Source: a bacterium (lineage in GTDB: Bacteria > Bacteroidota > Rhodothermia > Balneolales > M1805). Taken from it: a stretch of DNA of 33,006 bases. A program made the position numbers and the translations under genes. The stretch covers positions 1 through 33,006 of the forward strand of contig SBGQ01000138.1 of NCBI GenBank assembly GCA_006226965.1. Direction: 5' to 3'. The notes beneath the pieces are model-generated. The model saw only the letters and a program-made list of their open reading frames with translations. It searched no databases and had not been told where the DNA came from. Of this stretch, positions 2,080-33,006 are shown in pieces. The stretch's first letter is position 1; every line of letters begins with the position of its first letter.

Positions 2080-2083
2080 ATGT

Positions 2084-8837: not shown

Positions 8838-8841
8838 ACTT

Positions 8842-9328: not shown

Positions 9329-9361
9329 TAAAAAAGCCAAGCTGATTTCTCAGATTGGCTT
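9329..9361 (-). terminator. Terminator after tRNA-Pro
   Basis: Reading on the minus strand, AAGCCAA and CTGA on one side pair with TCAG and TTGGCTT on the other around a GAAA loop (9334-9361), followed by six T. It lies just downstream of the tRNA. Confidence 0.85.
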
Positions 9362-9368
9362 AATTTTG

Positions 9369-9442
9369 TCGGGATGACAAGATTTGAACTTGCGACCCCT
9401 TGCACCCCATGCAAGTACGCTACCAGGCTGCGCTACATCCCG
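9369..9442 (-). tRNA. tRNA-Pro, anticodon GGG
   Basis: A 74-base cloverleaf with all four arms. The acceptor is CGGGATG / CATCCCG with discriminator A. The D arm contains AGCCTGGTA. The anticodon stem CTTGC/GCAAG encloses the loop ATGGGGT, giving anticodon GGG (proline, CCC/CCU). The T loop is TTCAAAT. CCA is not encoded; CAAAA follows the discriminator. A terminator follows. Confidence 0.97.
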
Positions 9443-9496
9443 AACAAGGCTTATAAGATACGGCTAAACGAAAGCCATATCAAGAAATCCGGGTTT

Positions 9497-10864: not shown

Positions 10865-10932
10865 GTCGTTTAATATCGTTGATAGATAGTTTTCGCGACA
10901 AAACTACGTAAAAAACACTTGTTAAAAAACCG

Positions 10933-11964: not shown

Positions 11965-12044
11965 GAGTGATTGAAAGAAAATTACATCCCGTCAAAATGT
12001 ACTTAATATCGCACATCAGTTCGAGAGGTATTTTTTGAGCTTAC

Positions 12045-14438: not shown

Positions 14439-14576
14439 ACAGATTCGCTCTCGTTAGTCTCTTCCGGAGAAATAAAGCAAATCATTAATTAAAGTCAATT
14501 TTGAAAAACTAAGTTTTGTTCAAGCACAACGAAAATGATTACATTCAAAAGAGTTGGTCATTTAAATATTGGTGTT

Positions 14577-15569
14577 ATGAAGCTTATAAAAATCTCCATT
14601 ACATTGGGTGTATTCATCTTTTTGTCCTTTTCATGTATGCAGTCAACCCGAGAAAATATGCCTAAAAAGCAATTCGCAATTGCGATTCATGGCGGTGCGG
14701 GAGTTATCTCAAAAAACCTGCCGGATTCAGTTAGAAAGAACTATGAAAAAGGTTTACAAGAAGCATTGGATTTAGGTAAAAATCTGTTGGAAAAAGGGAG
14801 TCCGGCGCTCGATGTGGTAGAACAGGTTATTCACGTTTTAGAAAACAATCCCTTATTCAATGCCGGAAAAGGCGCCGTATTTACTGCAAAAGGTGAACAC
14901 GAGTTGGATGCAGCTATTATGAATGGTAAAACATTGGCAACCGGTGCGGTTGCAGGTGTAAAAACGGTAAAAAACCCAATCTCATTAGCGAGAAAAGTAA
15001 TGACGGAAACTCCTCACGTGTTATTGATGGGCGCAGGAGCCGAAGAATTCGCCGATTCACAAGATATAACTCGTGTCCCCAACTCGTATTTTGATACAGA
15101 AAATCGTAGAAAGCAGTTAGAACGTGCTCAGCAAAAAAGTGCAGAAATCTTAAAATCGGATACCTATGGAACGGTTGGTTGTGTGGTTTTGGATAAAGAC
15201 GGAAATCTTGCTGCGGGAACATCAACAGGTGGAATGACTAACAAAAAATTTGGACGAGTGGGTGATGCGCCGATAATCGGAGCCGGAACGTACGCGAATA
15301 ACGAAACCTGTGCGATTTCAGCAACAGGAACGGGAGAAGAATTTATACGTCACACCGTAACAGCACGTATTTCAGCATTATTTGAGTACAAAAATTATTC
15401 AATCGAAAAAGCATCTGACTATGTGATTCACAAAGTCTTGCAACCCGGTGATGGAGGCGTTATTTGCGTTGATAAGTTTGGAAACATTGCCATGCCGTTT
15501 AACTCTGCGGGAATGTTCAGGGGTGCCGCAGATTCTGAAGGTTTGTTTGAAGTAAAGATTTGGGAGTAA
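14577..15569 (+). CDS. Isoaspartyl peptidase / L-asparaginase, lipoprotein form
   Basis: An N-terminal-nucleophile hydrolase of the plant-type asparaginase family, which cleaves isoaspartyl dipeptides and L-asparagine. The frame opens at 14535, but the ATG at 14577 starts a lipoprotein signal (KLIKISITLGVFIFLSFSC, lipobox Cys20), so I use that. The domain begins IAIHGGAGV. The autocleavage site is DTYG|TVGC, with the nucleophile Thr199 in this numbering. The substrate-binding GTSTGGMTNKKFGRVGDAP and TGTGEEF are present. Export as a lipoprotein suggests it works on peptides in the periplasm or at the cell surface. The gene probably has its own promoter in the ~140-base gap to divergent comEC. 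Confidence 0.93.
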   Translation: MKLIKISITLGVFIFLSFSCMQSTRENMPKKQFAIAIHGGAGVISKNLPDSVRKNYEKGLQEALDLGKNLLEKGSPALDVVEQVIHVLENNPLFNAGKGAVFTAKGEHELDAAIMNGKTLATGAVAGVKTVKNPISLARKVMTETPHVLLMGAGAEEFADSQDITRVPNSYFDTENRRKQLERAQQKSAEILKSDTYGTVGCVVLDKDGNLAAGTSTGGMTNKKFGRVGDAPIIGAGTYANNETCAISATGTGEEFIRHTVTARISALFEYKNYSIEKASDYVIHKVLQPGDGGVICVDKFGNIAMPFNSAGMFRGAADSEGLFEVKIWE

Positions 15570-15621
15570 TTCGATACCTTTAGCGAAATAAAAACGATTT
15601 ATTTGATAAACAAAATCAACA

Positions 15622-16194
15622 ATGATCTATCAATTTCTAAAAAAAATGCCCCAATTCGACGAGACTGTTTTTGTAGCTCCGTCGGCAGATATAATCGGTG
15701 ATGTTCAGTTGGGTTCTGATTCATCCGTTTGGTTTAACGTAACCATTCGCGGTGATGTGAATTGGATTCGTATCGGAGAGCGAACCAATATTCAGGATAA
15801 TTCCAGTGTGCATGTAATGAACCAAACCGGCCCGACCTGGATTGGTGATGATGTTACCATCGGGCACAATGCCATGATTCACGGTTGCCAGATTAAAGAC
15901 CGTGTTTTGGTCGGAATTCATGCAACTGTACTAGACAAAGCCGTTATTGAATCGGATGTAATTGTAGCAGCAAACAGTTTGGTTCCTCCGGGAAAACGCC
16001 TTGAATCCGGTTATTTGTATATGGGTTCACCCGTAAAACAAGTTCGAAAACTTACCGATGAAGAAATTGCCGGAATTAAAAAGTATTCGGAAAACTATGT
16101 TCGTTACAAACGCACCTACATGCAGATTGATAAATACGAAACCAATCCGTTTTACGATGAGAATAAGCGTCCGGAAGATTTTACGGGCTATTAA
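15622..16194 (+). CDS. Gamma-class carbonic anhydrase family protein
   Basis: A 190-residue left-handed beta-helix (hexapeptide) protein of the YrdA/PaaY/gamma-carbonic-anhydrase type. The repeats run from about residue 18 to 130 (ADIIGDVQLG, NVTIRGDV, TIGHNAMIHG). The three metal-ligand histidines of the family are His64 (SSVHV), His82 and His87 (GHNAMIHG). Such proteins form trimers with zinc between subunits. Whether this one hydrates CO2 cannot be told; many family members are inactive in standard assays. A strong terminator follows the gene. Confidence 0.92.
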   Translation: MIYQFLKKMPQFDETVFVAPSADIIGDVQLGSDSSVWFNVTIRGDVNWIRIGERTNIQDNSSVHVMNQTGPTWIGDDVTIGHNAMIHGCQIKDRVLVGIHATVLDKAVIESDVIVAANSLVPPGKRLESGYLYMGSPVKQVRKLTDEEIAGIKKYSENYVRYKRTYMQIDKYETNPFYDENKRPEDFTGY

Positions 16195-16224
16195 GGTGTA
16201 TTCAATCTTCGAATATATTGTCAA

Positions 16225-16260
16225 AAAGGTGCAATTTCCTAAATTAGCACCTTTCTTTTT
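16225..16260 (+). terminator. Terminator after the carbonic anhydrase gene
   Basis: Stem AAAGGTGC plus AATTT (16225-16237) pairs with AAATT, a bulged A, and GCACCTTT (16241-16254) around a 3-base loop, followed by CTTTTTAT. Confidence 0.85.
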
Positions 16261-16285
16261 ATATAGGGTTTAAATTAGAACAGTT

Positions 16286-16924
16286 ATGACGTTTACAACA
16301 GCATCGGACACCTACAGAATTTCGTTTTCGAAGAATTATCTATTAATGGGGGAAATTGTACTCTTTTTGGGAGTTTGGTTGAGCACCTATTTGGGAACAA
16401 ACGATTACAATAACTGGTGGCTTGAAAACACACTCGTATTTCTTTCCTTGGCATGGTTAATTCCAAGTTTTAAGAAATTTACAATGAGCGACCTGAGTTA
16501 TGTATTTATTACACTATTCATGTTGTTGCACGTGTATGGTTCAAAATACACCTATGCTGATAATCCGTTTGGTTTTTGGCTTAAAGACGTTTTGGAGCTG
16601 GAGCGAAATCACTACGATCGTATTGTGCATTTTAGTTTTGGCTTTTTATTAGCCTATCCGATGCGTGAGGCTTTCATAAGAATGTTCAAACTTTCAAATC
16701 GGTTATCATGGATTTTGCCGACTGAGGTAACGCTTTCGTTAAGCGGTTTATACGAAATTATTGAATGGGCCGTAGCTGATATCTTTTTTCAAGAGCAGGG
16801 AACGGCTTATTTAGGAACTCAAGGTGACCCTTGGGATGCTCAAAAAGATATGTTTTTAGCAACATTGGGTGCCCTTTTGGCTACGGTGATGATTTATGTT
16901 GTGAAAAGAGTGTTAAAAAAATAG
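16286..16924 (+). CDS. DUF2238 (YjdF-type) inner membrane protein
   Basis: A 212-residue polytopic membrane protein. Family marks are ERNHYDRIVHFSFG near residue 109, a membrane glutamate in YEIIEWAVAD, and GTQGDPWDAQKDM near residue 172. Roughly five to six hydrophobic segments are visible. The function of the family is unknown. The conserved Asp, His and Glu residues inside or near the membrane suggest metal binding or catalysis, but that is inference. It is followed one base later by the flavoprotein gene, so the two are very likely co-transcribed. Confidence 0.85.
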   Translation: MTFTTASDTYRISFSKNYLLMGEIVLFLGVWLSTYLGTNDYNNWWLENTLVFLSLAWLIPSFKKFTMSDLSYVFITLFMLLHVYGSKYTYADNPFGFWLKDVLELERNHYDRIVHFSFGFLLAYPMREAFIRMFKLSNRLSWILPTEVTLSLSGLYEIIEWAVADIFFQEQGTAYLGTQGDPWDAQKDMFLATLGALLATVMIYVVKRVLKK

Positions 16925-16925
16925 C

Positions 16926-18128
16926 ATGACCAAAACCCTCATCATCGGTGCCGGTGCTGCCGGACTCACAGCCGCCTATTTTGCTGCAAAAGCGGGTCAA
17001 TCCGTACTAATTCTTGAAAAAACCGACAAAGCCGGAAAAAAAATCTTGATGTCGGGCGGTACTCGTTGTAATGTGCTTCCGGTAGTGATGAATCTCGATG
17101 ATTACTTCACGAATGCATCACCCAATGTGCTCAAAAAAGTGTTCAAGTCGTGGAGTTTGAATGCCTGTAAAAATTGGCTTCAGGATGAAATTGGTATTCC
17201 GCTCGCCACCGAAACAGAGTCGAATAAGTGGTTTCCTGAAAGTAATTCCGCGAAAGAAGTTCGTGACAAATTGTTAGAAGCTTGTTTACAACTTGGAGTT
17301 GTAATCCGATACAATCAACAGGTAAAAGAACTGCAAAAAACGGATTTCGGTTGGGAGGTCATCACCGAAAACAAAATCTATAAAGCAGATAAAGTGGTGA
17401 TGAGCACGGGCGGAAAATCCATCCCGACAACAGGAACAGAGGGCGAAGGATATCGAATACTCCGGAATTTGGGACATCAACTCATAGAACCTTATGCAGC
17501 TTTAACTCCTTTAAAAGGTGCACACCCTTTCGAGCAAGGTTTGCAAGGCATTTCGTTGAATGTGGAATTAAATGTGAATTCGCTGGGAAATCAATCACAG
17601 TCTAACCGAAGCGGTTTTGTGTTTACACATGACGGGTTTTCGGGTCCGGCCGTTTTAGACCCATCACACTATGCTGTTTTACACCAACTCGGACGCATGG
17701 AAAAGCCGGATTATCGGGTGAATTGGGCATCAAAAAAACGAGAGGATTGGGACGCCTATTTGCAATCGGGGCGTGGTTTAGTGCTGAATCGGGTAAAAGA
17801 ATGGCTTCCGGCACGTTTGGCTGAGTCAATCTGTGCGGAATGTGGATTGATGGAACGATCCTGCGCCGAATTACGCCGTGAAGAGCGCTTGAATTTAGTA
17901 GATAAACTTACCGCATACCGATTAGAAATTTCCGGAAATGAAGGCTATCGAAAAGCTGAAGTTACGGGCGGTGGTGTTCCGCTAGATGAAATCAACACGG
18001 CAACAATGGAAAGTAAATTGCATTCAGGCTTGTTTATCTGTGGTGAATTGGTTGATGTTTTCGGTAGAATCGGGGGGTTTAATTTTTATTGGGCTTGGGT
18101 AAGCGGAAGGTTGGCAGGTAAGAGTTAA
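16926..18128 (+). CDS. HI0933-type NAD(P)/FAD-dependent oxidoreductase
   Basis: A 400-residue flavoprotein. The FAD-binding Rossmann motif is GAGAAG (8-13) with the Glu end at LILEKTDKAGKK. The family motif SGGTRCNV follows at about residue 43. VMSTGGKSIPTTGTEGEGY is in the middle, and the C-terminus has GLFICGELVDVFGRIGGFNFYWAWVSGRLAG, which closes the FAD site. The family (BaiN-related) includes reductases of uncertain physiological substrate. The start lies one base after the DUF2238 stop, a coupled pair. Electron transfer between the membrane protein and this flavoprotein is possible but unproven. Confidence 0.9.
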   Translation: MTKTLIIGAGAAGLTAAYFAAKAGQSVLILEKTDKAGKKILMSGGTRCNVLPVVMNLDDYFTNASPNVLKKVFKSWSLNACKNWLQDEIGIPLATETESNKWFPESNSAKEVRDKLLEACLQLGVVIRYNQQVKELQKTDFGWEVITENKIYKADKVVMSTGGKSIPTTGTEGEGYRILRNLGHQLIEPYAALTPLKGAHPFEQGLQGISLNVELNVNSLGNQSQSNRSGFVFTHDGFSGPAVLDPSHYAVLHQLGRMEKPDYRVNWASKKREDWDAYLQSGRGLVLNRVKEWLPARLAESICAECGLMERSCAELRREERLNLVDKLTAYRLEISGNEGYRKAEVTGGGVPLDEINTATMESKLHSGLFICGELVDVFGRIGGFNFYWAWVSGRLAGKS

Positions 18129-18241
18129 TTCAAATAGTGGCTGCGAGTAAAAAACTTTTTTCATTCCATCCCATTTTAATAGCATTTTAGTCCGAAAAAT
18201 TCGATGCTCGGTATTTCAAATTTCTAAAATCCAAAGCAAGC

Positions 18242-18691
18242 ATGAAAACCCACCATTATACCACTCAGATTACATGGACCGGTAATGCCGGAAAAGGAAC
18301 CACAAACTATAAATCATACGAGCGTTCACATGAGCTTTCATCAGCCCAAAAAGAAATCATTCAGCTCAGTTCAGACCCCGCTTTTCGTGGCGACCCAACA
18401 AAATATAATCCGGAAGAACTATTGGTTTCGGCTGTTTCAAGTTGCCATATGTTGTGGTTTTTGCATTTGTGCGCTGTTCAGGGTGTAGTAGTAACAGCTT
18501 ACGCGGACTCTCCCGAAGGGATTATGCTGGAAGAATTAGACGGAAGCGGATATTTCAGTGAGATTATCTTGAAGCCTAAAATCGAGATCGAAAATGAAGA
18601 GCACAGAGCTTTATTGCCGGCAATACATGAGTTAGCACACAGTAAATGTTTCATTGCCAACAGTTTAACTTGTAAGGTTTCTATTCTCTAA
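18242..18691 (+). CDS. OsmC/Ohr-family peroxidase
   Basis: A 149-residue thiol peroxidase for organic hydroperoxides. The two redox cysteines of the family are Cys68 (VSSCHMLWFL) and Cys136 (HSKCFIAN). The typical NPEELLVSAVSSC helix is intact. OsmC/Ohr proteins work as homodimers and are re-reduced by lipoylated proteins or thioredoxin. The subtype (OsmC versus Ohr versus YhfA-like) is not settled. The gene lies alone upstream of the chemosensory cluster. Confidence 0.9.
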   Translation: MKTHHYTTQITWTGNAGKGTTNYKSYERSHELSSAQKEIIQLSSDPAFRGDPTKYNPEELLVSAVSSCHMLWFLHLCAVQGVVVTAYADSPEGIMLEELDGSGYFSEIILKPKIEIENEEHRALLPAIHELAHSKCFIANSLTCKVSIL

Positions 18692-20465: not shown

Positions 20466-22535
20466 ATGAATCCGCTAAAAAACCAACTCCAAAATTTTTT
20501 AGAAGAAGCCTTAGAAATTGTAGAAGTCATTGAAAAGGAAATTCTTCAACTCGAAGTAAACAGTAACAACGAATCGGTGCTGCACAGTTTATTCAGAAAT
20601 ATGCATACGCTAAAAGGAAGTGGCGGAATGTTTGGTTTTACTTCTATTTCTGAATACGCTCACATGTTTGAAAACATCTACGACTCACTAAGAAATAAAC
20701 AGTTGGAATTGGATGAATCAATAATAGCAGTGAGTTTAGAATCGGTAGATCATTTCAGAGCCTTATTAAAAGACCCTCAACTCAAAAACAAGAAAACTCA
20801 AACCAAACACGATGGAATGAAATCCAAACTTTCAAGTTGGGTAGAGTTGCGTGAGACTTCAATTAAGCCGACGATTCAGCAGGTTGAAACTAAGCCTGTA
20901 CATACTTGGCATATTCATTTTAAACCGGTTCTGTCCCAATCCGGTATGGATTTAGACCCGATAAGTGTGCTTGAAGAATTAAAGAGTTTGGGAACGTGTG
21001 TAATTGTACCAAACTCAGCTTTAGTAGAACCTTATAATGAGTTCTTTCAGTATGAAAAACTAGACATAGCTTGGGATATCATCCTATCAACCCGTGCAAC
21101 TATGGATGAGCTGCAAAGTGTGTTTTTGTTTTTCGGAGAAGAGTCGCTGATAGAAATAAATGCTGTTGGTGACGGCGATTATCTGGCAGATGTGTATTTC
21201 AGCAAGTTTGTACAATCGAAAGCGGAATTATTAATGGGTGTTTCTGCTTATGAACTGATGGAAATGGCTAATTCTATTCAACTAAAAAAAGCAACTTCTA
21301 GAGCCGCCAAAACAGAAACAGAACGAAATAGGGAAGCGCCGGCTAAAACTATTGTCTCAAAAAGCGATGCTTCTAATTCAATTCGAGTAGAAACACAAAA
21401 AGTAGATTTATTACTCAGTTTAGTAAGCGAATTGGTTACCGCTCAGGCAAGACTTTCACTATATAGCGAAGTATTGGATAATCCTGAAATAGTAGAAGTA
21501 GCTGAGGACATCGAAAAAATTACACGAAGATTGAGAGAAAATGCTTTCTCAATAAGTATGGTGCCGATTTCAACGATGGAAACACGTTATAAACGATTAA
21601 TTCGAGATTTGGCAACAAAAGAAGAAAAGCTGATTTCTTTCCGCACCGAAGGCTTGGATACAGAAATTGACAAATCCTTAATTGAGCAGATAAGCCCGGC
21701 ATTATTGCACGTGTTCAGAAATTCGGTTGATCATGGAATTGAGACTCCGGAAAAGAGAAAAGAACAAGGAAAACCTGAATCCGGTGAGATTGTTTTTAGA
21801 GCATATTACTCCGGTTCGCATGTAGTAATGGAAATTAGTGATGACGGAAACGGCTTAAATCTGGAAAAAATAAAAGCAAAAGCGATTAAGAAGGGTTTGA
21901 TTAAAACAGAACAAAAAGTAAGTGAAGCCGAGTTAATGGATTTGCTTTTTCATCCCGGTTTTTCAACAGCAGATAAAGTGACGGACGTTTCCGGCAGAGG
22001 AGTCGGAATGGACGTAGTGCGCACCACGTTTAATAAGATTCGCGGTGAAGTTTTTATCGAATCCAAAAAAGGATTCGGCACCAAAATCATCATGCACTTG
22101 CCGCTTACCTTATCCATTTTGGACGGTTTATTAGTAAGTGTTGGCTCTCAGAAATTCATAATACCCTTGCAATTTCTTGACAAATGTTTTGAAGTAACCA
22201 ATTTCAAAAAGAAAGATGCCAACGACGATATTATTGTAATAGAGAATGAACAAATTCCTGTTATTGATTTACGCGAAATAGCAAGTATAGACGAAGAACG
22301 CCCGGTTATTTCTTCGTTGCCAATTGTAATGTACAACAATACTAAGGTTGGGTTTTTAGTAGATAAAATTATTGGTGAACACCAAGCCGTAATCAAATCC
22401 TTAGGTAAGATTTTTCAATCCGTTAAAGCCGTTTCAGGAGCATCCATTTTAGGTGATGGGGAAATAGCGTTGATTCTGGATGTGAACAAAATTATTAGTG
22501 ACTACACAGCTAACCAGCAAACCATGGAGGTTTAA
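20466..22535 (+). CDS. cheA: Chemotaxis histidine kinase CheA
   Basis: A 689-residue kinase with all working parts: the P1 phosphotransfer domain with His47 in MHTLKGSGG; a middle domain (HTWHIHFKPV to about residue 250) where CheY/CheB docking is expected; a P3 dimerisation helix pair (IRVETQKVDLLLSLVSELV); an ATP-binding domain with the N box HVFRNSVDHGIE (415-426), EISDDGNGLN, FHPGFSTAD and GRGVGMDVV (from 510); and a C-terminal CheW-like P5 domain. It is the hub of the chemosensory array, phosphorylating CheB and an unlinked CheY. It is fully co-transcribed with its neighbours. Confidence 0.97.
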   Translation: MNPLKNQLQNFLEEALEIVEVIEKEILQLEVNSNNESVLHSLFRNMHTLKGSGGMFGFTSISEYAHMFENIYDSLRNKQLELDESIIAVSLESVDHFRALLKDPQLKNKKTQTKHDGMKSKLSSWVELRETSIKPTIQQVETKPVHTWHIHFKPVLSQSGMDLDPISVLEELKSLGTCVIVPNSALVEPYNEFFQYEKLDIAWDIILSTRATMDELQSVFLFFGEESLIEINAVGDGDYLADVYFSKFVQSKAELLMGVSAYELMEMANSIQLKKATSRAAKTETERNREAPAKTIVSKSDASNSIRVETQKVDLLLSLVSELVTAQARLSLYSEVLDNPEIVEVAEDIEKITRRLRENAFSISMVPISTMETRYKRLIRDLATKEEKLISFRTEGLDTEIDKSLIEQISPALLHVFRNSVDHGIETPEKRKEQGKPESGEIVFRAYYSGSHVVMEISDDGNGLNLEKIKAKAIKKGLIKTEQKVSEAELMDLLFHPGFSTADKVTDVSGRGVGMDVVRTTFNKIRGEVFIESKKGFGTKIIMHLPLTLSILDGLLVSVGSQKFIIPLQFLDKCFEVTNFKKKDANDDIIVIENEQIPVIDLREIASIDEERPVISSLPIVMYNNTKVGFLVDKIIGEHQAVIKSLGKIFQSVKAVSGASILGDGEIALILDVNKIISDYTANQQTMEV

Positions 22536-22538
22536 CAC

Positions 22539-23060
22539 ATGAGTACCTCATCATTTAATGCCTATTTAACCTTTAAGCTGGATCGAGAGATTTTTGCCAT
22601 ACCGGTTGAGCAGGTAATTGAAATCATAGAAGTATCGCAAATCACAAAAATCCCCCAAACATCAGATTTTGTTTTAGGGATTACCAATTTGCGTGGCAAT
22701 GTTTTACCCGTAATTGATACTCGGGTGAAATTCGGTATGGAACAGGTTCCGCAAACCATTGATTCTTGCATTATAGTGATTGCCGTTCACAATCAAAACG
22801 AGGAATCACACTTGGGGATTTTGGTCGATTCGGTTATGGAAGTGTCGGAGTTTGAAGCAAAGCATATAAAAGCCAAACCAACCATCGGCAGAAAATTTAA
22901 CAATGAATACATCACAGGAATTGTTCAAAGCGAAGAGCAATTTGTGCTATTACTGAATGTGAATAAAGTTTTTGATAACGAGGAAATTATACAAATGAAT
23001 GAGTTATCAGATAATGAAGGCGAAGTAAACGAATTAACAGAAGAACTAATAGAAAAGTGA
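22539..23060 (+). CDS. cheW: Chemotaxis coupling protein CheW
   Basis: A 173-residue two-lobed SH3-like adaptor that joins CheA to the receptor. Typical segments are [41 protein letters not shown] and [13 protein letters not shown] highly acidic ~30-residue tail ([14 protein letters not shown]...) is longer than in minimal CheW proteins; its meaning is unknown. It starts three bases after the cheA stop. Confidence 0.95.
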
Positions 23061-23067
23061 GAACACA

Positions 23068-25167
23068 ATGAAATTCAAGAATTTAAAACTAGGCAGTAAA
23101 CTTGGAGTGGGATTCGGAACCATCATTTTATTAGCCGTTATACTTGGCTTAGTTGCCGTGTATAATCTCCAAGTAATCGGAACTGAAACAGAAGAATTAA
23201 CGGAAGAGTTTTTACCTCAGATTGAAGTTACATCCAAAATTGAACGAAGTGTAAAAGATATCATGTATGATATGCGCGGGTATGCTTACTCAGAAAACAA
23301 AGATATGTATGATGAGGTAACCAATCAGTTTAGTGTGTTGGAATCTACCGTTGAGGATGCTGAAATTTTGGCAAAAAACAGTCCCAATTTAATTGCACTA
23401 AAAGAAAAGCTGACACAAACCAAAGAAAATATTCGCGAATACCAAAAGTTTGCACGACAAACAGAAAAAGTAGTAACACAAATTATCGTCCACAGAAAAG
23501 AATTGGATGAGAACGGAACTGCTTTCGTAAATAATATTGTGAAATACACCGACTCTCAGGATAAAGTTTTAACAGCCGAATTAAATAAAGCTGTTATTGA
23601 TAAAGGTGCTGTAAAAAACATTCTTGGTGTTTTGGAATTGGTAGAGGAAATAAACAGAATGGCTACAAGTGCTCGAATCAATGCAAACAAAGCTAATATT
23701 CAAAAAGATGCAAAATTGCTTGAATCGGTTGCCGCAACTATTAATGATATGTTTCCCATTGTACGCGAATTGACTAAAATGACCAATTCCGATTCACAAT
23801 TGGAACTGTTAAATAAGGTTTCTGAATCAACAAAAAACTATTTAAGCGCTGTTGAAACATTGAAAGATCAGTTTAACGAGTTGGAAACCCTTAAGACTGA
23901 GCGCGAAGACCACGGAAATATTGTTTTGGCGGATGCCGAGTCAATTAATCTGAGAGGTATTACAGAAACTATTAAAATCGGAAACGACAATTTAGCATCT
24001 GTCAACTTCTCAACAACCATTATGCTGGTAGGGTTGGTTTTTGTTCTTTTGTTAGGAATCATGTTTGGTGTAATTATTACCAAAGCGATTACCGGCCCAA
24101 TCTTAAAAGGTGTTGATTTCGCAAAAACTATCTCAAATGGTGATTTAACAGCTAATGTTGATATTGAACAAGATGACGAAATCGGTTTATTAGCCGATGC
24201 ATTAAGAACAATGAAAGACCGTTTAACGGACATTATCAGCAATATAAAGAGTGGATCAAACGGAATTGCATCTGCTTCACAACAGCTTTCTTCATCTGCA
24301 CAACAGATGTCTCAGGGTTCAACCGAACAGGCAGCATCTGCCGAAGAGGTATCTTCTGCAATGGAAGAAATGGTGGCTAACATTCAACAAAACACCGATA
24401 ATGCTCAACAAACTGAAAAAATCGCTCTCAAGGCAAGTGAAGATGTATTGAGCGGAAGCAAAGCAGTTGATGAAACCGTTCGTTCCATGAAATCAATTGC
24501 AGAAAAAGTTAGTGTAATTGGTGAAATCGCACGCCAAACCAACCTCTTGGCTCTTAACGCAGCCGTTGAAGCAGCCAGAGCCGGTGAACACGGAAAAGGA
24601 TTTGCCGTGGTTGCTGCTGAGGTAAGAAAATTGGCTGAAAGAAGTCAATCTGCTGCAACAGAAATTAACGAACTATCAAAACGCAGTGTTGATGTTGCCG
24701 ACCAAAGCGGTAAAATTCTTATCAATATTGTTCCTGATATTCAAAAAACATCAGACCTTGTACAAGAAATCAGCGCTTCTAGTATAGAACAAAATACTGG
24801 TGCAGATCAGGTAAATACCGCTATTCAACAACTGAATTCGGTAATTCAACAGAATGCATCAGTAAGTGAAGAAATCGCGTCCAGCGCTGAAGAGTTGTCT
24901 TCACAAGCAGATCAATTACGCGATATCATCAGTTTCTTCCGAGTTGACGGTAAGCACGCCGGTTTCAATGGCAATCTTGCCAACGGTAATGGAAGCGGTA
25001 AACATATTGACCAATCCCATAAAATCGTAACGAAAAAAGTGGCTCATATTGCCAGTAAATCAGCTGGTTTACACGGCGGAAAAAAAGGTAAAGCAACCGA
25101 AAACGGATACGTATTGGACTTAAGTTCGAACGATTCGATTGACGCTGAATACGAAAAATACTCCTGA
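23068..25167 (+). CDS. Transmembrane methyl-accepting chemotaxis protein
   Basis: A 699-residue receptor: TM1 about 12-32, a helical periplasmic sensor of about 280 residues rich in coiled-coil character (like helical-bundle sensors), TM2 about 316-338, HAMP ([20 protein letters not shown]), methylation helices, and the signalling hairpin [21 protein letters not shown] from about 486. A flexible tail rich in G, N, K and H follows and ends EYEKYS. EYEKY fits the aromatic-x-x-aromatic CheR/CheB tether seen as NWETF in enteric receptors. The ligand is unknown; the all-helical periplasmic domain gives no specific clue. Confidence 0.95.
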
Positions 25168-25234
25168 TAACCTGAACACCAAAAGGAGACTTTTTATGAC
25201 CCCACCACACAAGTAAAAAAGTCTCTGATAAAAT

Positions 25235-25270
25235 CCAGCCTCATTCTAGGGTGAGGCTGGTTCTTTTTCA
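25235..25270 (+). terminator. Terminator after the chemoreceptor gene
   Basis: Perfect 9-bp stem CCAGCCTCA (25235-25243) / TGAGGCTGG (25252-25260) with an 8-base loop, followed by TTCTTTTTC. It marks the end of the cheR-to-receptor transcript unless read through. Confidence 0.85.
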
Positions 25271-25380
25271 GAGATAAGAAGTATGACTGAAATGTCAGGT
25301 GAATGAATGTTTATAGATTCAAATTTGATTGTATAAACAGGTTATAAAAACGAAAAAACGTTATAAATAAAAGGAAACAA

Positions 25381-25468
25381 GCTGGTCTGGTAAACCGGCG
25401 GAACCCTTTAAACCCGCAATGTTTGTGGAATAAATGAAAGATGCTATGTAAAAGGTGGGTTTAGCATC
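25381..25468 (+). promoter_or_regulatory. Structured 5' leader of unknown class, possible pseudoknot
   Basis: Hairpin GCTGGT (25381-25386) / ACCGGC (25394-25399). TAAACCC (25409-25415) is complementary to GGGTTTA (25457-25463). That second strand sits in the loop of another hairpin, GATGCT (25440-25445) / AGCATC (25463-25468), giving a pseudoknot-like layout with one shared base. It ends 28 bases before the barrel gene start. I cannot match it to a known riboswitch. Confidence 0.4.
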
Positions 25469-25496
25469 AGGTTTATCCATAAAAGAGAGGTTGGTT

Positions 25497-26219
25497 ATGA
25501 AAAAAATCATCATGCTCTTTGTTTTCATCTTGGCTAGCGGTTATTCAACCGGATTAGCTCAAGTAATGACAGAACCTGCATCAGGCATTGAAAGAAATGG
25601 ACTTCAAGTCGATGTCGGAACATTTAGACAGAATATTGAAAACAGTGAAAATCACTATCAATATGCAGGCTATTTGTTCATGTATGGTTTAACTGATAAC
25701 GTAGAATTACGGCTCGAAGGCGATTTGAATTCTGAAGGTAATTACAATCAGTCGAGTAATGTTCAATTAAGTCCGCTGCAATTCGGAATACGCTATAAAC
25801 TATTAGATGATAATAGCCACGGAATTCAAGTATCGGCTATTTCACATGTATATAGTACTCGATTTTCGAACAGTTCGATGGAAAATAAAATGGGAACGGT
25901 TACACGTATCTCCACTTTTATTCCGATAACATCCAAATTGGGATTAGGAAATAACGTTGGATTTGAAGCAGAAGAGCAAGGCGAAACCATGTGGTTTTAT
26001 ACCGGTGCTTTACTCTACAACCAAAGTGAAAAACTCAGTTATTATGTTGAAGTCTATGGCAACGATATTTTATGTATTGATAATTGCCACAGTTTAGATG
26101 TAGGAGTTGCATACGCGTTAACGGATGCTCTTTCTATTGATACATCTTTCGGTTTTGATTTCATTTACCAAAACCGTTCGTCATTATTCTCCGTGGTATT
26201 TTCTTATGCGATTCAATAA
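25497..26219 (+). CDS. Outer-membrane beta-barrel-like protein
   Basis: About 240 residues from the ATG at 25497 (AGAGAGG six bases upstream; the frame itself opens at 25455). A signal peptide KKIIMLFVFILASGYSTGLAQ is followed by alternating beta strands (VELRLEGDLN, LQFGIRYKLL, ISTFIPIT, KLSYYVEVYGND, SLDVGVAYALTDALSID) and a short aromatic-containing end, SVVFSYAIQ. It resembles the transporter/phenol-degradation MetA-like barrel family; that match is approximate. It sits between the receptor and cheB, behind its own structured leader, so it may be separately regulated. A role in ligand access to the chemoreceptor is speculative. Confidence 0.7.
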   Translation: MKKIIMLFVFILASGYSTGLAQVMTEPASGIERNGLQVDVGTFRQNIENSENHYQYAGYLFMYGLTDNVELRLEGDLNSEGNYNQSSNVQLSPLQFGIRYKLLDDNSHGIQVSAISHVYSTRFSNSSMENKMGTVTRISTFIPITSKLGLGNNVGFEAEEQGETMWFYTGALLYNQSEKLSYYVEVYGNDILCIDNCHSLDVGVAYALTDALSIDTSFGFDFIYQNRSSLFSVVFSYAIQ

Positions 26220-26258
26220 ATACAGGGGAATAAATCATACATAAAATCCGATTAGAAT

Positions 26259-26355
26259 CCGGCAGAATCAGAATCAAACAGACAAAAGACAACATTTGAG
26301 AATGGCTCTGCCGGTATCTGTTAGATAAATAAACAACACTTTTGAAAGGGTGTTG
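26259..26355 (+). promoter_or_regulatory. Two hairpins in the cheB leader
   Basis: CCGGCAGA (26259-26266) is perfectly complementary to TCTGCCGG (26307-26314) across a 40-base loop. About 20 bases later CAACACTTT (from about 26335) pairs with GGGTGTTG (ending near 26355), including two G-T pairs. Neither is followed by a T-run, so they look like leader structures rather than terminators. Confidence 0.4.
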
Positions 26356-26394
26356 AAACACAAACAAAAAGAAAGCTTGGTTTGCGGGTTAGTT

Positions 26395-27480
26395 ATGAAA
26401 ATATTGAATAAAGTTAAGGTTCTGATTGTTGATGATTCCGCGGTTGTGCGCCAGGTTATGACCAATGTGTTAAATGCAGATCCGGAAATAGAAGTAATGG
26501 CAACAGCATCAGACCCCTATATTGCCGCAAGTAAGATAGCCGTTGAAATACCGGATGTTATTCTGCTCGATATCGAAATGCCAAGAATGGATGGTTTGTC
26601 TTTTCTGCAAAAGTTAATGACACAAAAACCAATTCCGGTTATCGTTTTTTCCTCACTTTCTGAAAAAGGTTCACAGATTGCCATACGTGCATTGGAGCTG
26701 GGAGCCGTTGATGTTATTTTAAAACCGGGCTCCGGAAACCGTTCCTTAATGAACCCTGACGTGGTAAAAGCCATTCAGGAAGGTGTAAAAATTGCTGCAA
26801 AAGTGTTTGTGAAAAAGCGTTCAGGAAAAATACAGGCGCATACAAACGGGCGCGTTGCTCCGAAACTCAGTGCCGATGCTGTTTTGGGACAGGTTTCGAA
26901 TAAGAGCATGATAAAAACCACAGAAAAAGTAATTGCAATCGGAGCTTCAACAGGCGGAACAGAGGCCATTCGCCAAGTTTTAGAACCATTAAGCCATGAC
27001 GTTTCCGGTATTGTAATTGTGCAGCACATGCCGGAGTTGTTCACCAAATCATTCGCCGATCGCCTAAATGAAATTTGTTCTATTACAGTGCAGGAAGCCA
27101 AAGACGGTGATTCGGTGATTAGGGGTAGAGCATTAATAGCACCGGGAAACAAACACATGATTTTAAAACGAACCGGTGCCCGTTATTACGTTGAAGTTAG
27201 AGACGGTGATTTAGTAAATCGGCACAGACCGGCAGTTGATGTTTTATTCCGTTCGGTTGCCATGTATGCCGGATCCAATGCAGTCGGAATTTTAATGACA
27301 GGAATGGGTGATGACGGAGCAAAAGGTTTGCTCGAAATGAGGCAAGCAGGTGCTTTAACTATTGCTCAAGATGAAAAAACATCCGTTGTTTTTGGGATGC
27401 CTAATGAAGCCATAAAAATAGGAGCGGCAATTCAGGTGCAGCCTCTTTATGCATTAAGCAAAATTATCGCATCAAACTAA
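26395..27480 (+). CDS. cheB: Chemotaxis methylesterase/response regulator CheB
   Basis: Removes receptor methyl groups and deamidates glutamines when phosphorylated by CheA. The start at 26395 gives [15 protein letters not shown] at the N-terminus; the frame opens earlier at 26350. The receiver domain has Asp13/Asp14 and phospho-acceptor Asp59 ([11 protein letters not shown]). The methylesterase catalytic triad is Ser185 (GASTGG), His211 (VQHMP) and Asp307 (GMGDDGA). All key residues are intact. It is separated from the other che genes by the barrel gene and a ~175-base leader, an unusual position. Confidence 0.96.
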
Positions 27481-27593: not shown

Positions 27594-28418
27594 ATGAGGT
27601 TTGTATATATAGGTATCTGGGTGCTTCTGGCTCTGATACCAACAATCTGGATGAGTGATTATATCCTCACCCCGATTATGGATAGACCTTATCACCCCGA
27701 TTATGAATGGTTTAAACCATCGGGATTGATTGGGCATGGATTGGGGATTATCGGGAGTTTGAACATGATTTTCGGGGTTTCAATCTATTACTTAAGAAAA
27801 AGATTAAAACTATTGCAACATGTAGGAAGACTAAGCACATGGCTTAGAATTCACATTTTTTTATGTACGCTTGGTCCGTTTTATGTATTGCTACACACAA
27901 CATTAATCGTAAATGGAATAGTCTCAATTTCATTTTGGAGCATGGTAATTGTGGTATTGAGCGGATTTTTCGGGCGTTTTTTATACAACCGCATACCCAA
28001 ATCAGATAACGGAATTTTTCTTTCTACCTCAACTATTCAACAAAAAATTTCCCAGCTGGAAACAAAAATTATCGGGCATACAAACGAATCTGTATTGAAG
28101 GAAATTAAGTTACCGCAGTTTGAATTGTTACTTGAAGCACTATTGTTTTCTTTGCGAATTAAGACAGTAAAAAAGCAAATCATCGCAAATGTTTGTCAGG
28201 CTTGCGGCGATGAAATTCTTCAGAACAAAGAAATCAATCTTAGGGGTTTGATTGATGATTTTTTGCAAGCTCAATTTACGTTGAGTGTTAGAAAACCATT
28301 TCAAAGCTACTTCAATTACTGGCATGTCTTTCATTTGCCCTTAGCGGGACTCATGTTTCTGATTATGTTCGTACATATCGTAATTGCCGTTTTGTTTGGT
28401 TACACCTGGATTTTATAA
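27594..28418 (+). CDS. Putative di-heme b-type membrane cytochrome
   Basis: A 274-residue inner membrane protein with about five membrane segments (roughly 1-22, 44-66, 84-106, 111-132, 245-270) and a ~110-residue hydrophilic insert before the last one. TM3 carries His87 and His101; the last helix carries His247 and His261. Both pairs are 14 residues apart, as in membrane cytochromes holding two bis-histidine b hemes (ferric-reductase or cytochrome-b type). The insert has CQACG (201-205) but no CxxCH. It is the first gene of the multiheme cytochrome operon, with GAGAGG before the start. I infer a quinol dehydrogenase feeding the periplasmic cytochromes; I recognise no named family. Confidence 0.65.
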   Translation: MRFVYIGIWVLLALIPTIWMSDYILTPIMDRPYHPDYEWFKPSGLIGHGLGIIGSLNMIFGVSIYYLRKRLKLLQHVGRLSTWLRIHIFLCTLGPFYVLLHTTLIVNGIVSISFWSMVIVVLSGFFGRFLYNRIPKSDNGIFLSTSTIQQKISQLETKIIGHTNESVLKEIKLPQFELLLEALLFSLRIKTVKKQIIANVCQACGDEILQNKEINLRGLIDDFLQAQFTLSVRKPFQSYFNYWHVFHLPLAGLMFLIMFVHIVIAVLFGYTWIL

Positions 28419-28429
28419 AGGAAGTTTCT

Positions 28430-29017
28430 ATGTTTACCCGCACTGTAAAACTCGCCATCGCTTCAGTCACTATTCTGATAGTTGTTGTTCTGATTAAAAT
28501 GTATTCAGAAGCAAAAGAAGAACCTCGAAATGTAGGTATTTCACCTAAAAAAGAAGTGGCATCTCCCGCCCAATTACCCAATGCCGGAAATGTTAGCGGA
28601 AGTTTTCAAAAACAGGTCTTGGATTTAGAAACCTATTTGGCTGAGCATCCTCAGGACACGACACACTTAGTTTTATTAGCACATTTATATCAAGATGCAC
28701 ATCAACCGCAAAAAGCTTCTCCATTTTATAAACGATTATTGGCTATTCAAAAAAAGAATACCCAACACTGGCTCGATTACATTACAGTTTTAGGTGAAGA
28801 GCAGAAGTGGAACGAAGCTGAATCCGTTTGTCTGGAAATGTTAGGTTTATTTGATGATGAATCGGCTAAATACAACTTGGGCGCTATTTACGCGAATCAA
28901 GGTCGCTTTGCTGATGCCAAAAAAACATGGGAAGAGATACTAATAAGCGGAAAAGCAGATTCCCATGTAACTCACTTGGTAAGCGATGGTTTAAAACAAT
29001 TGGCGCAAATGAAATGA
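28430..29017 (+). CDS. Membrane-anchored TPR protein
   Basis: A 195-residue protein with one N-terminal membrane segment (LAIASVTILIVVVLI) and a periplasmic tetratricopeptide domain from about residue 60 (LETYLAEHPQDTTHLVLLAHLY, ASPFYKRLLAIQKKN, YNLGAIYANQGRFADAKKTWEEIL). The layout resembles NrfG/CcmI-type helpers that present apocytochromes to heme lyase. Given that the next two genes encode 20- and 19-heme cytochromes, an assembly role is a reasonable inference. Its stop codon overlaps the next start (ATGA). Confidence 0.8.
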   Translation: MFTRTVKLAIASVTILIVVVLIKMYSEAKEEPRNVGISPKKEVASPAQLPNAGNVSGSFQKQVLDLETYLAEHPQDTTHLVLLAHLYQDAHQPQKASPFYKRLLAIQKKNTQHWLDYITVLGEEQKWNEAESVCLEMLGLFDDESAKYNLGAIYANQGRFADAKKTWEEILISGKADSHVTHLVSDGLKQLAQMK

Positions 29018-30717
29018 GACGTTTAATTGGTGTAATCGTACTTTTTTGTTGGGCTGGAATTGCACATGCTCAACTGATTTCACCCGGAAAACTGATTAAA
29101 GGACATCAGTTTCTGGAAGGGGTTACGAATTGTACGAATTGTCATCAATTGGGAAAAAAGGGGATTTCGAATTCAAAATGTTTGGATTGCCACACTCCGG
29201 TTAAAGAAACGAATGAACTCAAACGAGGCTATCACGCACAAAAAGATGTACTCGATAAAAATTGTGCGAGCTGCCATAAAGAGCATTTTGGAGTAGATTT
29301 TGATATGATTCGATTTGATTCAACCGCTTTCGATCATAAAAAAACGGCTTTTGAATTAATTGGGAAACACTCTGATGTGTTTTGTGCGAGTTGCCACACG
29401 GGCAAATTACAGGAGAACAAAACCTTGGCTGTTTTTGGTGAGAAGTTTAATGTAAAGCATAGCGGTTATATGGGGTTGGGTTTGAATTGTGAATCGTGCC
29501 ATACACCGGATAATCCCCACGAAAAACAGTTCGAAGAAGTACAATGTAAGAGTTGCCATACACCACTTGATTGGAAAAATCTGGACGCATTCAATCATCA
29601 GAAAACAAATTTTCCTTTATTGGGTGAGCACGTAAACGTGAAATGTGAGTCCTGCCATAAACCAATAGAATCCAATCCGAAAGTGATTCAATATAAAGGC
29701 TTGGCGTTTGAAAGTTGTGTTTCTTGCCATGAAGATGTACATAAAAAACGATTGGGTAATGATTGTCAATCTTGCCATAATGAAAAATCGTTTCACAATT
29801 TTATCAACTTTCCAGAGAAAACCTTTCCGCATGAAGAAACCGGATTCAAATTGCTCGGAAGCCATTCTAAAGCGGAATGTTCATCATGCCATAAAACTGA
29901 CGTGAAAAGAGACAGGGTTTTGTATTCACTTTCTTATGTGGATTCAACTCGTAAGTACACGTATCCGCATCCTGCATCGGTTAACTGCACAAGTTGCCAT
30001 CTTGATATACATAAAGGTCGCTTTAATTCAGAAACACAAACCTTGGCTTGTACAGAATGCCACACGGAAGAAGTTTGGAAACCGAGTTTGTTTGATGTGG
30101 ATAATCACAACAAAAAAAGCGTGTTTAAGCTTACGGGCGCACATATTGCAACGCCATGTTTTCAGTGCCATTCAACGGGTTCAAATCTTCATGATTTCCC
30201 GAATTTTTCGATGAAGGATAAGTCGTGCTTTTCTTGCCATGAGAAAGTGAATCCGCATGGAAAAGAGTTTGAAGATGAAAACGGAAATATACTTTGTGAG
30301 ACCTGCCATGGAACACAAAGCTGGAAACTGGCCGATTTTAATCATGATAAAACGGAATTTCCATTAACCGGAAAGCACGCTATAACTACATGTGAAAATT
30401 GCCATATACAAGACGTAAATGGTGAAAAGAGATTTTCAATAAAGGAATTTGAATGTGTTTCTTGTCACCAAAAAGACGACCCTCACGAAGGGCAGTTTAA
30501 ACAGTCGAACATTGGAAAATCATGCGATGTTTGCCACGATAATCAACAATTTACAATTGCACTTTTTAACCATGATAAAACTAGATTTTCGTTGAAAGGG
30601 GCACATGAATCAGTTGCTTGTGCATCTTGCCACAAACAAGAGTTGAACATAAAAAGTGAGCCATTTACCCGTTTTGTTCCGGTTTCAATAGAATGTAAGG
30701 ATTGCCATGGTGAATAA
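29014..30717 (+). CDS. Secreted multiheme c-type cytochrome, 20 CxxCH
   Basis: A 567-residue protein from the ATG at 29014, which overlaps the TPR stop codon (ATGA); the open frame extends back to 28927, but the downstream start gives a signal peptide (RRLIGVIVLFCWAGIAHA|Q). I count 20 CxxCH heme c motifs. About six copies of a module of the form FNH-x2-T-x-F-x-L-x-G-x-H followed by CxxCH recur, where the extra histidines could be distal heme ligands. No enzyme motif other than hemes is visible, so it is probably an electron-transfer wire in the periplasm. It overlaps the following gene by 11 bases. Confidence 0.92.
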   Translation: MRRLIGVIVLFCWAGIAHAQLISPGKLIKGHQFLEGVTNCTNCHQLGKKGISNSKCLDCHTPVKETNELKRGYHAQKDVLDKNCASCHKEHFGVDFDMIRFDSTAFDHKKTAFELIGKHSDVFCASCHTGKLQENKTLAVFGEKFNVKHSGYMGLGLNCESCHTPDNPHEKQFEEVQCKSCHTPLDWKNLDAFNHQKTNFPLLGEHVNVKCESCHKPIESNPKVIQYKGLAFESCVSCHEDVHKKRLGNDCQSCHNEKSFHNFINFPEKTFPHEETGFKLLGSHSKAECSSCHKTDVKRDRVLYSLSYVDSTRKYTYPHPASVNCTSCHLDIHKGRFNSETQTLACTECHTEEVWKPSLFDVDNHNKKSVFKLTGAHIATPCFQCHSTGSNLHDFPNFSMKDKSCFSCHEKVNPHGKEFEDENGNILCETCHGTQSWKLADFNHDKTEFPLTGKHAITTCENCHIQDVNGEKRFSIKEFECVSCHQKDDPHEGQFKQSNIGKSCDVCHDNQQFTIALFNHDKTRFSLKGAHESVACASCHKQELNIKSEPFTRFVPVSIECKDCHGE

Positions 30718-32233
30718 ACGAGCTTTTATTGGGTTCATTTTTTGTCTGACTTGGGTTCTTTCGCTCCAAGCACAAACGGGGAAAACGTTTCAAAATCCGC
30801 ATGGAAATCTTATTAAGGGTTTGGATTGTTCTGATTGTCACACGCAGCAAAGTTGGAAACCCATTAAAGACAGTTTAGCGTTTAACCATACTAAACAAAC
30901 GTCATTTTCACTCATTGGTCGACATCAAAATACAAGTTGTACAAGTTGCCATGTAAGTTTACGTTTTGATGAACCCAAAATTAATAACGAAGATTGTGCA
31001 GCTTGCCACACCGATGTACATCATGGGAAATTGGGTGAGAATTGTGAGCAGTGCCATAATCAACATTCGTTTAATGATATTCAAGGTATTAAAATTCACG
31101 CTCGCACGAACTTTCCATTAACGGGTTCCCATGCTCAGATTCAATGTGTGAATTGCCATCAAAATCAAAAAATGGGCGCCTTTACAACTCTTGAGACAGA
31201 TTGTTATTCCTGTCACAAAAAAGACTATGAACGAACAAGAACTAAAGCGCTGGACCATGTGAGTTTAGGGTATCCCACAGAATGTAAACAGTGCCATAAT
31301 TCAATGGGTTGGGCGGGTGCAAAATTCGACCATGTAAGCACTTCCGGTTACCCTTTAATCGGTGCGCACGTTTCAATTCGTTGCCAGGATTGCCATGAAA
31401 TTCCAAGTATGAATTTACATCATACACCAATTGGACCCAATGATTGTTACAGTTGCCATGCACAGGATTATCAGCACGAACACGGTGGAAGTAATTATCC
31501 GACTACCTGCTTGAGCTGCCATAATCAAACATCGTGGGATGGAGCTTCTTTTAACCATACAAGCGCCTCAGGCGGGTTTGAATTAATTGGCGCACATAAA
31601 TCAATAGATTGTTCGAGCTGCCATGTAATTCCTAGTTATCAGCCAAAATTTGCAGCGTCATCAAATAATGATTGTATTTCTTGCCACAATGCTGAATTCC
31701 AACGAGAACACGGTGGAAATTACCCTACTACTTGTTCTACTTGTCATAAACAAACAACTTGGGAGGGAGCAACGGTAAATCATACCGAGATTTCAGGAGG
31801 TTTTGAACTGGTAGGGGCTCACACTTCTTTAGATTGTTCGAGCTGCCATGTAGTGCCGGGTTACCAAAACAAATTTACTGCAACTACTCAAACAGACTGT
31901 ATCTCTTGCCATAATGCTGACTATCAGAGAGAGCACACTTCAACAGGGTTTTCAACCACATGTACCGATTGCCATAAGGTTGATACATGGTCTGGAGCAA
32001 AGTTTACGGCGCATGACTCCAAACACTTCCCGATTTATTCAGGTAAACACAGGAATGTTTGGGGTACGAATTGCCAGACTTGCCACACCAATACATCAGA
32101 TTACTCCATTTTCTTTTGCACAAATTGCCATGAGCACAATAAATCATCGATGGATAGCGAACACCGAGGAATTCGCAATTACCAATATTTGAGCTCGGCT
32201 TGTTATTCTTGCCACCCGAGAGGTACAGATTGA
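30707..32233 (+). CDS. Secreted multiheme c-type cytochrome, 19 CxxCH
   Basis: A 508-residue protein with a signal peptide (FIGFIFCLTWVLSLQAQ) and 19 CxxCH motifs. Residues 188-475 form four tandem units of about 74 residues with three hemes each; units 2 and 3 (263-336 and 337-411) are near-identical in layout (YPTTCxxCH, SGGFELxGAH, DCSSCH, DCISCHNA). It shares the FNH...L.GxH...CxxCH module with the preceding cytochrome. The ATG lies inside the last CxxCH of the upstream gene (the CAT of His provides the A and T), an 11-base overlap. Its own stop overlaps the next start (TTGA). Confidence 0.92.
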   Translation: MVNKRAFIGFIFCLTWVLSLQAQTGKTFQNPHGNLIKGLDCSDCHTQQSWKPIKDSLAFNHTKQTSFSLIGRHQNTSCTSCHVSLRFDEPKINNEDCAACHTDVHHGKLGENCEQCHNQHSFNDIQGIKIHARTNFPLTGSHAQIQCVNCHQNQKMGAFTTLETDCYSCHKKDYERTRTKALDHVSLGYPTECKQCHNSMGWAGAKFDHVSTSGYPLIGAHVSIRCQDCHEIPSMNLHHTPIGPNDCYSCHAQDYQHEHGGSNYPTTCLSCHNQTSWDGASFNHTSASGGFELIGAHKSIDCSSCHVIPSYQPKFAASSNNDCISCHNAEFQREHGGNYPTTCSTCHKQTTWEGATVNHTEISGGFELVGAHTSLDCSSCHVVPGYQNKFTATTQTDCISCHNADYQREHTSTGFSTTCTDCHKVDTWSGAKFTAHDSKHFPIYSGKHRNVWGTNCQTCHTNTSDYSIFFCTNCHEHNKSSMDSEHRGIRNYQYLSSACYSCHPRGTD

Positions 32234-33006
32234 AAAAGCAATGGTTTTACATACTCATTGTTTTTTCGTTTATGTGTGTGATGACTACTCAGGCACAAGA
32301 AACGTCCGTAGTGGCTGTAGACCCCGTGCAATTACATGCGAAAGTTATTTATTTGAGTAAAAATCAATTGTATATAAATATCGGTTTTGAGTTGGGTATT
32401 CAAACCCAAGATACAGTTTGGATTAGTACACAAACTCAAGAGCAAGTTCCTTACAAGGTGGTACAGTCTTCAAGCAACAGCAGTTTGGTGCAACCATTGG
32501 ATAAGCTGTTACTTGTAACCATTGGAAATGAATTGATAATTACCTTTTCACCAAATCAAAAAGAAGAAAAACAAATTGCTGAAACGGTAAATCGGGAGTC
32601 CATTTTAGGGATTTCAGAAGGCAGAAAAACGGCAAGTCGTGAAGCTGTAATTAGCGGTAGATATGTGTTTGGATTAAACACAGTCGCTAGCCGAACGCTT
32701 TGGAATGAACACATTAAAGAAGCGTTTTACCGGGTCTCCGTTGAGCCGCAAGTCGGCTATTCCTTACGAGCAACAAACTTAGCCGGCGGATTTGACTTCA
32801 ATCTAAATACACGAATGGATTATCGATATTACTCGAAAAACACCATTGAGCTGCCTTTGCAATTACGTGTGTATGATTTCTCCATTCAAAAGAAGTTCAA
32901 AAAGCTTCCTGTGCAAATAGAAGCCGGACGTTTTTCTAATGATTTTAACATATTTGGTGGTTATTGGGACGGTTTGTTAATCAATATTGGAAACCAACAT
33001 GTTGGT
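32230..33006 (+). CDS. Exported protein, putative outer-membrane barrel partner (3' partial)
   Basis: Starts with TTG whose last two bases are the first two of the upstream TGA stop (TTGA), and stays open to the window end (259 codons), so it is cut off. A signal peptide is clear (KKQWFYILIVFSFMCVMTTQAQ). The first ~150 residues form a beta-rich periplasmic domain (LHAKVIYLSKNQLYINIGFELG, VTIGNELIITFS). From about residue 160, alternating strand-like segments appear (EAFYRVSVEPQVGYSLRA, GGFDFNLNTRMDYRYYS, LPLQLRVYDFSIQKKF, VQIEAGRF), suggesting a barrel. Co-translation with cytochromes suggests a porin partner; the rest of the gene is needed to confirm. Confidence 0.7.
   Translation, partial: MKKQWFYILIVFSFMCVMTTQAQETSVVAVDPVQLHAKVIYLSKNQLYINIGFELGIQTQDTVWISTQTQEQVPYKVVQSSSNSSLVQPLDKLLLVTIGNELIITFSPNQKEEKQIAETVNRESILGISEGRKTASREAVISGRYVFGLNTVASRTLWNEHIKEAFYRVSVEPQVGYSLRATNLAGGFDFNLNTRMDYRYYSKNTIELPLQLRVYDFSIQKKFKKLPVQIEAGRFSNDFNIFGGYWDGLLINIGNQHVG

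Follow-up and report, generated by a model that had tools for sequence, protein, structure and literature searches.

The conduit closest to the gene set analyzed here is PCC3, a putative conduit described from genomes of Alpha-, Beta- and Gammaproteobacteria, which comprises a porin, an outer cytochrome (median 34 hemes, up to 85), an inner cytochrome (median 21 hemes) and an inner-membrane protein of ~300 amino acids (aa) with five transmembrane helices (TM), SGXXG on TM4 and WX3HX13H on TM3 and TM5 (He et al., 2017; PMC5566968). In the Gallionellaceae, the PCC3 cytochromes carry 21-27 and 10-35 hemes (PMC10734462). The stretch of DNA studied here (the window) is the entire contig C56 (33,006 bases) of a Balneolales genome, and it ends in genes for a di-heme b protein, a tetratricopeptide repeat (TPR) protein, two multiheme cytochromes and a barrel-like protein truncated by the contig end. 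With a flavoprotein gene on a second contig, C115, they would form an operon of six genes, the join between both contigs being strongly inferred. We read this cassette, with moderate confidence, as a PCC3-type conduit that would carry electrons across the envelope and be fed with NAD(P)H from the cytoplasm. Its features are the following:

27594..28418, + strand: di-heme b inner-membrane protein, 274 aa, with PCC3-type signature motifs
28430..29017, + strand: membrane-anchored TPR protein, 195 aa, with Pfam TPR matches
29014..30717, + strand: exported 20-heme cytochrome (20 CxxCH; c3/c7-type repeats, Pfam c3/c7), proposed periplasmic wire
30707..32233, + strand: exported 19-heme cytochrome (19 CxxCH; five three-heme units of ~76 aa), proposed outer-surface wire
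32230..33006, + strand: N-terminal half of the putative outer-membrane barrel, whose remainder would be positions 1-821 of contig C115 (locus L021)
32993..33006, no strand: 14-bp palindrome ACCAACATGTTGGT, which also opens contig C115; assembly break point
Contig C115 (L021), 822-2129: flavoprotein gene, directly after the barrel remainder

The b protein bears the exact signature motifs of PCC3 and PCC4 (W83-x3-H87-x13-H101, SGFFG at 123-127 and W243-x3-H247-x13-H261). The two histidine pairs that the initial annotation had noticed in this protein are HX13H pairs (H87/H101 and H247/H261), invariant in relatives, and both WX3HX13H motifs are present in 28 of 35 Bacteroidota homologs and in all eight myxococcal ones. 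Five TM helices agree with hydropathy and with the helices of an all-helical AlphaFold2 model (predicted local distance difference test score, pLDDT, 86.6). The protein matched no Pfam family, and a PDB profile search with it gave no relevant match. The likeness to PCC3 extends to an inner cytochrome of around 20 hemes (mostly 20 here and up to 23, with a PCC3 median of 21 and 21-27 in the Gallionellaceae), an outer cytochrome with a highly variable heme number (9-64 here), ~26-28 residues per heme, and a barrel in the cluster, here the joined gene with a barrel-like model of low confidence. So although the parts had not been recognised as those of known families, the cassette is PCC3-like by its features. 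It differs from PCC3 in its Bacteroidota hosts, of which we found no mention in the PCC3 literature (weak evidence, as subscription papers were thinly covered), in the presence within the operon of an NAD(P)H-type Fe-S flavoprotein, absent from published PCC3, and often of a TPR protein, and in a barrel of ~530-600 aa for which ~20-22 strands are predicted, the PCC3 barrels having up to 42 transmembrane regions.

The distribution of the cassette was evaluated with a profile search for the b protein in 395 genomes sampled from the phylum, taking matches with E below 1e-70 as strong. Such matches were obtained in the own genome and in 38 others, and 36 of these 38 other-genome neighbourhoods were inspected. 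Both cytochromes and the flavoprotein accompany the b gene in 34 of the 36, the exceptions being L054 and L082, where all three are missing; a strong or weak barrel match was found in 31, and a TPR homolog in 17 of the related loci. The flavoprotein gene lies either between the b and 20-heme genes or after the barrel, and since its place varies among loci, its retention cannot be explained by mere position. The gene content, conservation and motifs of the cassette are direct observations, and the recurrence of the same genes in dozens of genomes places the set beyond chance. A single-sequence search of 59 genomes of the same order gave no match, while the wider profile search found one carrier within it (G408, locus L005), which indicates a patchy distribution. 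Carriers of b homologs also include metagenome-assembled genomes (MAGs) of Rhodothermales and Ignavibacteriales. A megablast search against plasmids returned no match. Plasmid pEMTOL02 of the cultured Emticicia oligotrophica DSM 17448 bears a complete cassette, with the cytochrome-maturation gene ccsA in front. That cassette lies at 884-18462 of locus L094 on this 100-kb plasmid (EMTOL_RS21085 to EMTOL_RS22055), together with ccsA and a gene for a GW-dipeptide protein, and is adjoined by genes for a sigma factor, a Rieske protein, a YceI protein and a c-type cytochrome.

The five open frames of the window are present and packed as the initial annotation described. The b and TPR genes are separated by 11 bases; the likeliest start of the 20-heme cytochrome is ATG 29014, in an ATGA overlap with the TPR stop, 28927 being merely the beginning of the longest frame; the 19-heme gene overlaps it by 11 bases, and the most likely start of the barrel is TTG 32230 (TTGA overlap) rather than 32200. 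Because a flavoprotein gene is part of the cluster in relatives, the own genome was searched for it, and it was found on C115. The first 14 bases of this contig are identical to the last 14 of the window (ACCAACATGTTGGT), a perfect palindrome inside the barrel gene and a plausible cause of the assembly break. The first frame of C115 is open up to 821 and continues the barrel in frame; across the joint the sequence is colinear, without gap, with that of the same-order relative L005 (DGLLINIGNQHVGFGTAIGTEPDRSSEWLSVNYPK vs DGAMAHLQMGNWGGGLTGGFQPVRTTEGLSFSYPK), in which the same flavoprotein gene immediately follows the barrel. The expectation that the last gene begins like a barrel was borne out by reading past 33006: the joined protein is barrel-like, is of full length and ends in ...WVSFWRSF. 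It measures 527 aa when begun at TTG 32230, the more probable start, or 537 aa when begun at TTG 32200, compared with 527-605 aa for its homologs. AlphaFold2 models the homolog from L005 with ~20 long strands behind a signal peptide, a small beta domain at the N terminus and a linker. The Foldseek matches shown for this model were all outer-membrane barrels (FimD, OmpM1, MOMP, AlgE, OmpF), with TM-scores of ~0.2, and MtrB was not among the 50 shown. Pfam and NCBIfam gave no family match for the complete barrels of relatives and none that was meaningful for the two halves in the window and C115. From the model, we take the product to be a barrel of uncertain size.

The flavoprotein (435 aa) begins with a membrane anchor and combines two ferredoxin-like motifs with a pyridine-nucleotide flavin domain. 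It matches Pyr_redox_3 and Fer4 in Pfam, and the N-terminal hydrophobic anchor is found in 31 of 36 homologs. Its closest solved relatives are YpdA/Bdr, thioredoxin reductase and ferredoxin-NADP reductase of the thioredoxin-reductase type; its score with the NCBIfam YpdA model, 172 bits, is well below the cut-off of 340. The second Fe-S motif is CxxHxxCxxxCP in all 36 homologs, and the second position of the first motif is Ser in 20 and Cys in 14. In ferredoxins that have been studied with substitutions of this kind, among them His, the clusters are [3Fe-4S] (PMC6237146), on which basis we predict at least one [3Fe-4S]-type cluster in the flavoprotein.

Regarding the cytochromes, the numbers of CxxCH motifs given for them, 20 and 19, were exact, with zero CxxxCH or CxxxxCH motifs in either; 25 and 26 further histidines, respectively, are sufficient for bis-histidine ligation. 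The first cytochrome is nearly constant among the 38 relatives counted, with 20 hemes in 32, 23 in three, 19 in two and 17 in one. In the second, the heme number varies between 9 and 64 and equals 1 modulo 3 in 35 of 40 cases; these tallies are raw counts over related loci, uncorrected for relatedness, and no probability is attached to them. Three-heme units of ~72-76 aa are present in 2 to 20 copies per second cytochrome, so that most of its totals are 3n+4. The 64-heme protein shows a recurring spacing of 34-22-21, and the 19-heme protein of the window has 26.7 residues per heme. These repeats are visible in the protein only, as a tandem array was not found at the DNA level.

From these parts we infer the following path, along with the seating of the cytochromes in the barrel and a partner outside the cell. 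NAD(P)H would reduce the FAD of the membrane-anchored flavoprotein. The electrons would move on to the pair of Fe-S clusters of this protein, of which one or both have the [3Fe-4S]-type CxxHxxCxxxCP motif, and from there across the inner membrane via both hemes of the b protein. The 20-heme cytochrome would then carry them through the periplasm to the outer-membrane barrel, from which the 19-heme cytochrome would take them outside the cell. The near-fixed 20-heme arm perhaps spans a fixed distance, while the outer arm would be free to vary, and the TPR protein probably aids assembly. Charge counts suggest that the 110-residue loop between TM4 and TM5 is cytoplasmic, which would put H87 and H247 near the cytoplasmic face and H101 and H261 near the periplasmic one; with its hemes near opposite faces of the membrane, the b protein would suit a cytoplasmic donor. 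Myxococcota have a fusion of the b domain with a 4Fe-4S protein, and on gammaproteobacterial plasmids of Methylophaga and Salinimonas distant b homologs stand beside a protein with FAD_binding_6, NAD_binding_1 and Fer2 domains; the gammaproteobacterial matches lie in clusters without an evident barrel. This pairing with Fe-S or NAD(P)H modules in two other phyla argues against a plain quinol oxidase and, together with the arrangement of the hemes, makes us prefer NAD(P)H over quinol as the donor. Three COX1 matches in the own genome indicate that the host probably respires oxygen, and in a genome with cytochrome oxidases an outward direction of the electrons seems likelier. Such a flow from NAD(P)H would by itself conserve no energy and may fit electron disposal when oxygen is short.

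Several points weigh against this reading, which is built on genes and models rather than on experiment. The adjacency of C56 and C115 is strongly indicated rather than proven, and the barrel model, built from four sequences only, has low confidence (pLDDT 56). A Foldseek search of the b model against the PDB gave no fold match (best E 0.47, with spurious helical matches only), and the likeness of the b protein to NADPH oxidase (NOX) and ferric reductase (FRD) enzymes would be one of HX13H spacing only. The cofactor could be NADH, NADPH or ferredoxin, and a cytoplasmic NAD(P)H-type donor is a better guess than quinol. Finally, He et al. (2017) proposed a quinone link for PCC3 (PMC5566968).

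That proposal, made for PCC3 and PCC4 from a likeness to cytochrome b, with PCC3 clusters that lack the flavoprotein (PMC5566968), leads to the alternative that best survives, a PCC3 conduit in which the b protein would oxidise menaquinol and reduce the 20-heme cytochrome, the flavoprotein having a side role or feeding the quinone pool. We consider it rather unlikely, given a flavoprotein as well conserved as the cytochromes (34 of 36 loci) despite its shifting position in the operon, the Fe-S or NAD(P)H modules that accompany the b domain in the two other phyla, and hemes whose predicted placement suits a cytoplasmic donor. The conduit idea of the initial annotation, a candidate path from quinol to the surface, is supported by the full-length barrel-like protein, the conserved gene set and the absence of any nitrite, tetrathionate or sulfite reductase family; its quinol part probably does not hold.

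The same parts could also work in the opposite direction, with the outer cytochrome taking in electrons that Fe(II), minerals or some other cell supply, as drawn for the Fe(II) oxidisers in which PCC3 was first found (PMC5566968, PMC10734462). This appears improbable: reducing NAD(P)+ with such electrons is uphill by established thermodynamics, the authors of PCC3 report it from only a small number of the known Fe(II) oxidisers (PMC5566968), and the three COX1 matches of the host fit a heterotroph, although they are compatible with lithotrophy. Least probable is that the cytochromes store electrons in the periplasm or supply a soluble reductase whose gene lies elsewhere, next to an ordinary porin, for while surface exposure and complex formation lack direct evidence, neither window cytochrome shows an evident lipobox and the barrel model is weak, a barrel homolog is kept beside the cytochromes in 31 of 36 loci, the cassette has no catalytic reductase subunit and the PCC3 pattern fits.

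The NAD(P)H-fed PCC3-type conduit would resemble NADPH oxidases and FRD enzymes in delivering electrons outward, from an NAD(P)H-FAD donor in the cytoplasm and over two hemes bound through two HX13H pairs. It would differ from them in its b protein, which has no FRD profile or fold match, and in its flavoprotein, which belongs to the thioredoxin-reductase type and carries Fe-S motifs. PCC4 (He et al., 2017) has a b protein with the same motifs, and some of its members have an adjacent Fe-S gene, once annotated as one gene with b; its cytochromes, however, have 4, 5 and 10 hemes, with no outer cytochrome, in contrast with the 20 and 19 hemes found here. MtrCAB, MtoAB and PioAB likewise combine a barrel with inner and, in the case of MtrC, outer multiheme cytochromes, of 10 hemes each, whereas the barrels studied here have no MtrB/PioB family match and the cytochromes scored far below the cut-off of the DmsE-type decaheme model. 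Geobacter Pcc (OmbB-OmaB-OmcB) and Ext are also porin-cytochrome gene clusters, with cytochromes of 8 and 12 hemes (PMC4245776); none of our parts had a family match to them, though the searched libraries may not contain those porins. Membership in MtrCAB was rejected, and membership in Geobacter Pcc appears unlikely from the libraries searched. A nitrite, tetrathionate or sulfite respiratory operon was also rejected, since Pfam and NCBIfam revealed no catalytic reductase subunit among the six genes. Within Bacteroidetes, an anode MAG has been reported to contain a barrel and six multiheme cytochromes in one cluster of seven genes (PMC8258643), a different gene set judging from the text of that paper, and outer-surface cytochromes were noted in bog lake members (PMC6344600).

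If the preferred reading is correct, PCC3-type conduits would be extended to a large phylum for which no mention was found in the PCC3 literature, a conduit class described from genomes would gain a candidate input subunit, and such conduits could be suggested to drain NAD(P)H directly rather than the quinone pool. A bolder but still plausible reading is that of a widespread NOX-like wire from NAD(P)H to the surface, in which a flavoprotein of the thioredoxin-reductase type, with [3Fe-4S]-type clusters, would drive the di-heme b protein, and which bypasses quinone and gains or loses three-heme modules in its outer arm (up to 64 hemes), in aerobic Bacteroidota and on at least one plasmid. The extracellular function, proposed here from sequence, becomes testable with the cassette on the plasmid of E. 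oligotrophica DSM 17448, and the combination of a near-fixed 20-heme arm with an arm of 3n+4 hemes represents a natural series on wire length versus electron transfer.

Other loci with b homologs showed different arrangements. In the myxococcal loci L009-L016, the b-4Fe-4S fusion is followed by a cytochrome of 24-28 hemes, and several have an open reading frame of 600-700 aa that is maybe a barrel; the Bacteroidota barrel profile detected no homologous barrel in myxococcal loci at E<=1, and barrel homology across phyla is not claimed. Gammaproteobacterial plasmids (L095, L096, L097) encode a short b protein together with a flavoprotein of the ferredoxin type and a cytochrome, near copper or hydrogenase genes, a set that is possibly a minimal relative of the input half of the conduit. 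The Bacteroidota loci L088-L091 combine a distant b protein and a 10-heme cytochrome with flavin-type proteins and, often, a protein of 3 to 7 hemes. PCC4-like in appearance, they form a separate group and may represent a second type of conduit in the phylum.

Scans for promoters and terminators gave no more matches than shuffled sequence. Just upstream of the cassette, on the same strand, there is a chemotaxis cluster with CheA (20466-22535), CheW (22539-23060), a methyl-accepting chemotaxis protein (23068-25167) and CheB (26350-27480), and a small exported barrel-like protein is encoded at 25455-26219, within the span of this cluster (20466-27480). A further multiheme protein of the same genome, with 543 aa and 8 CxxCH motifs, is encoded on contig C74 (L098, 745-2376).

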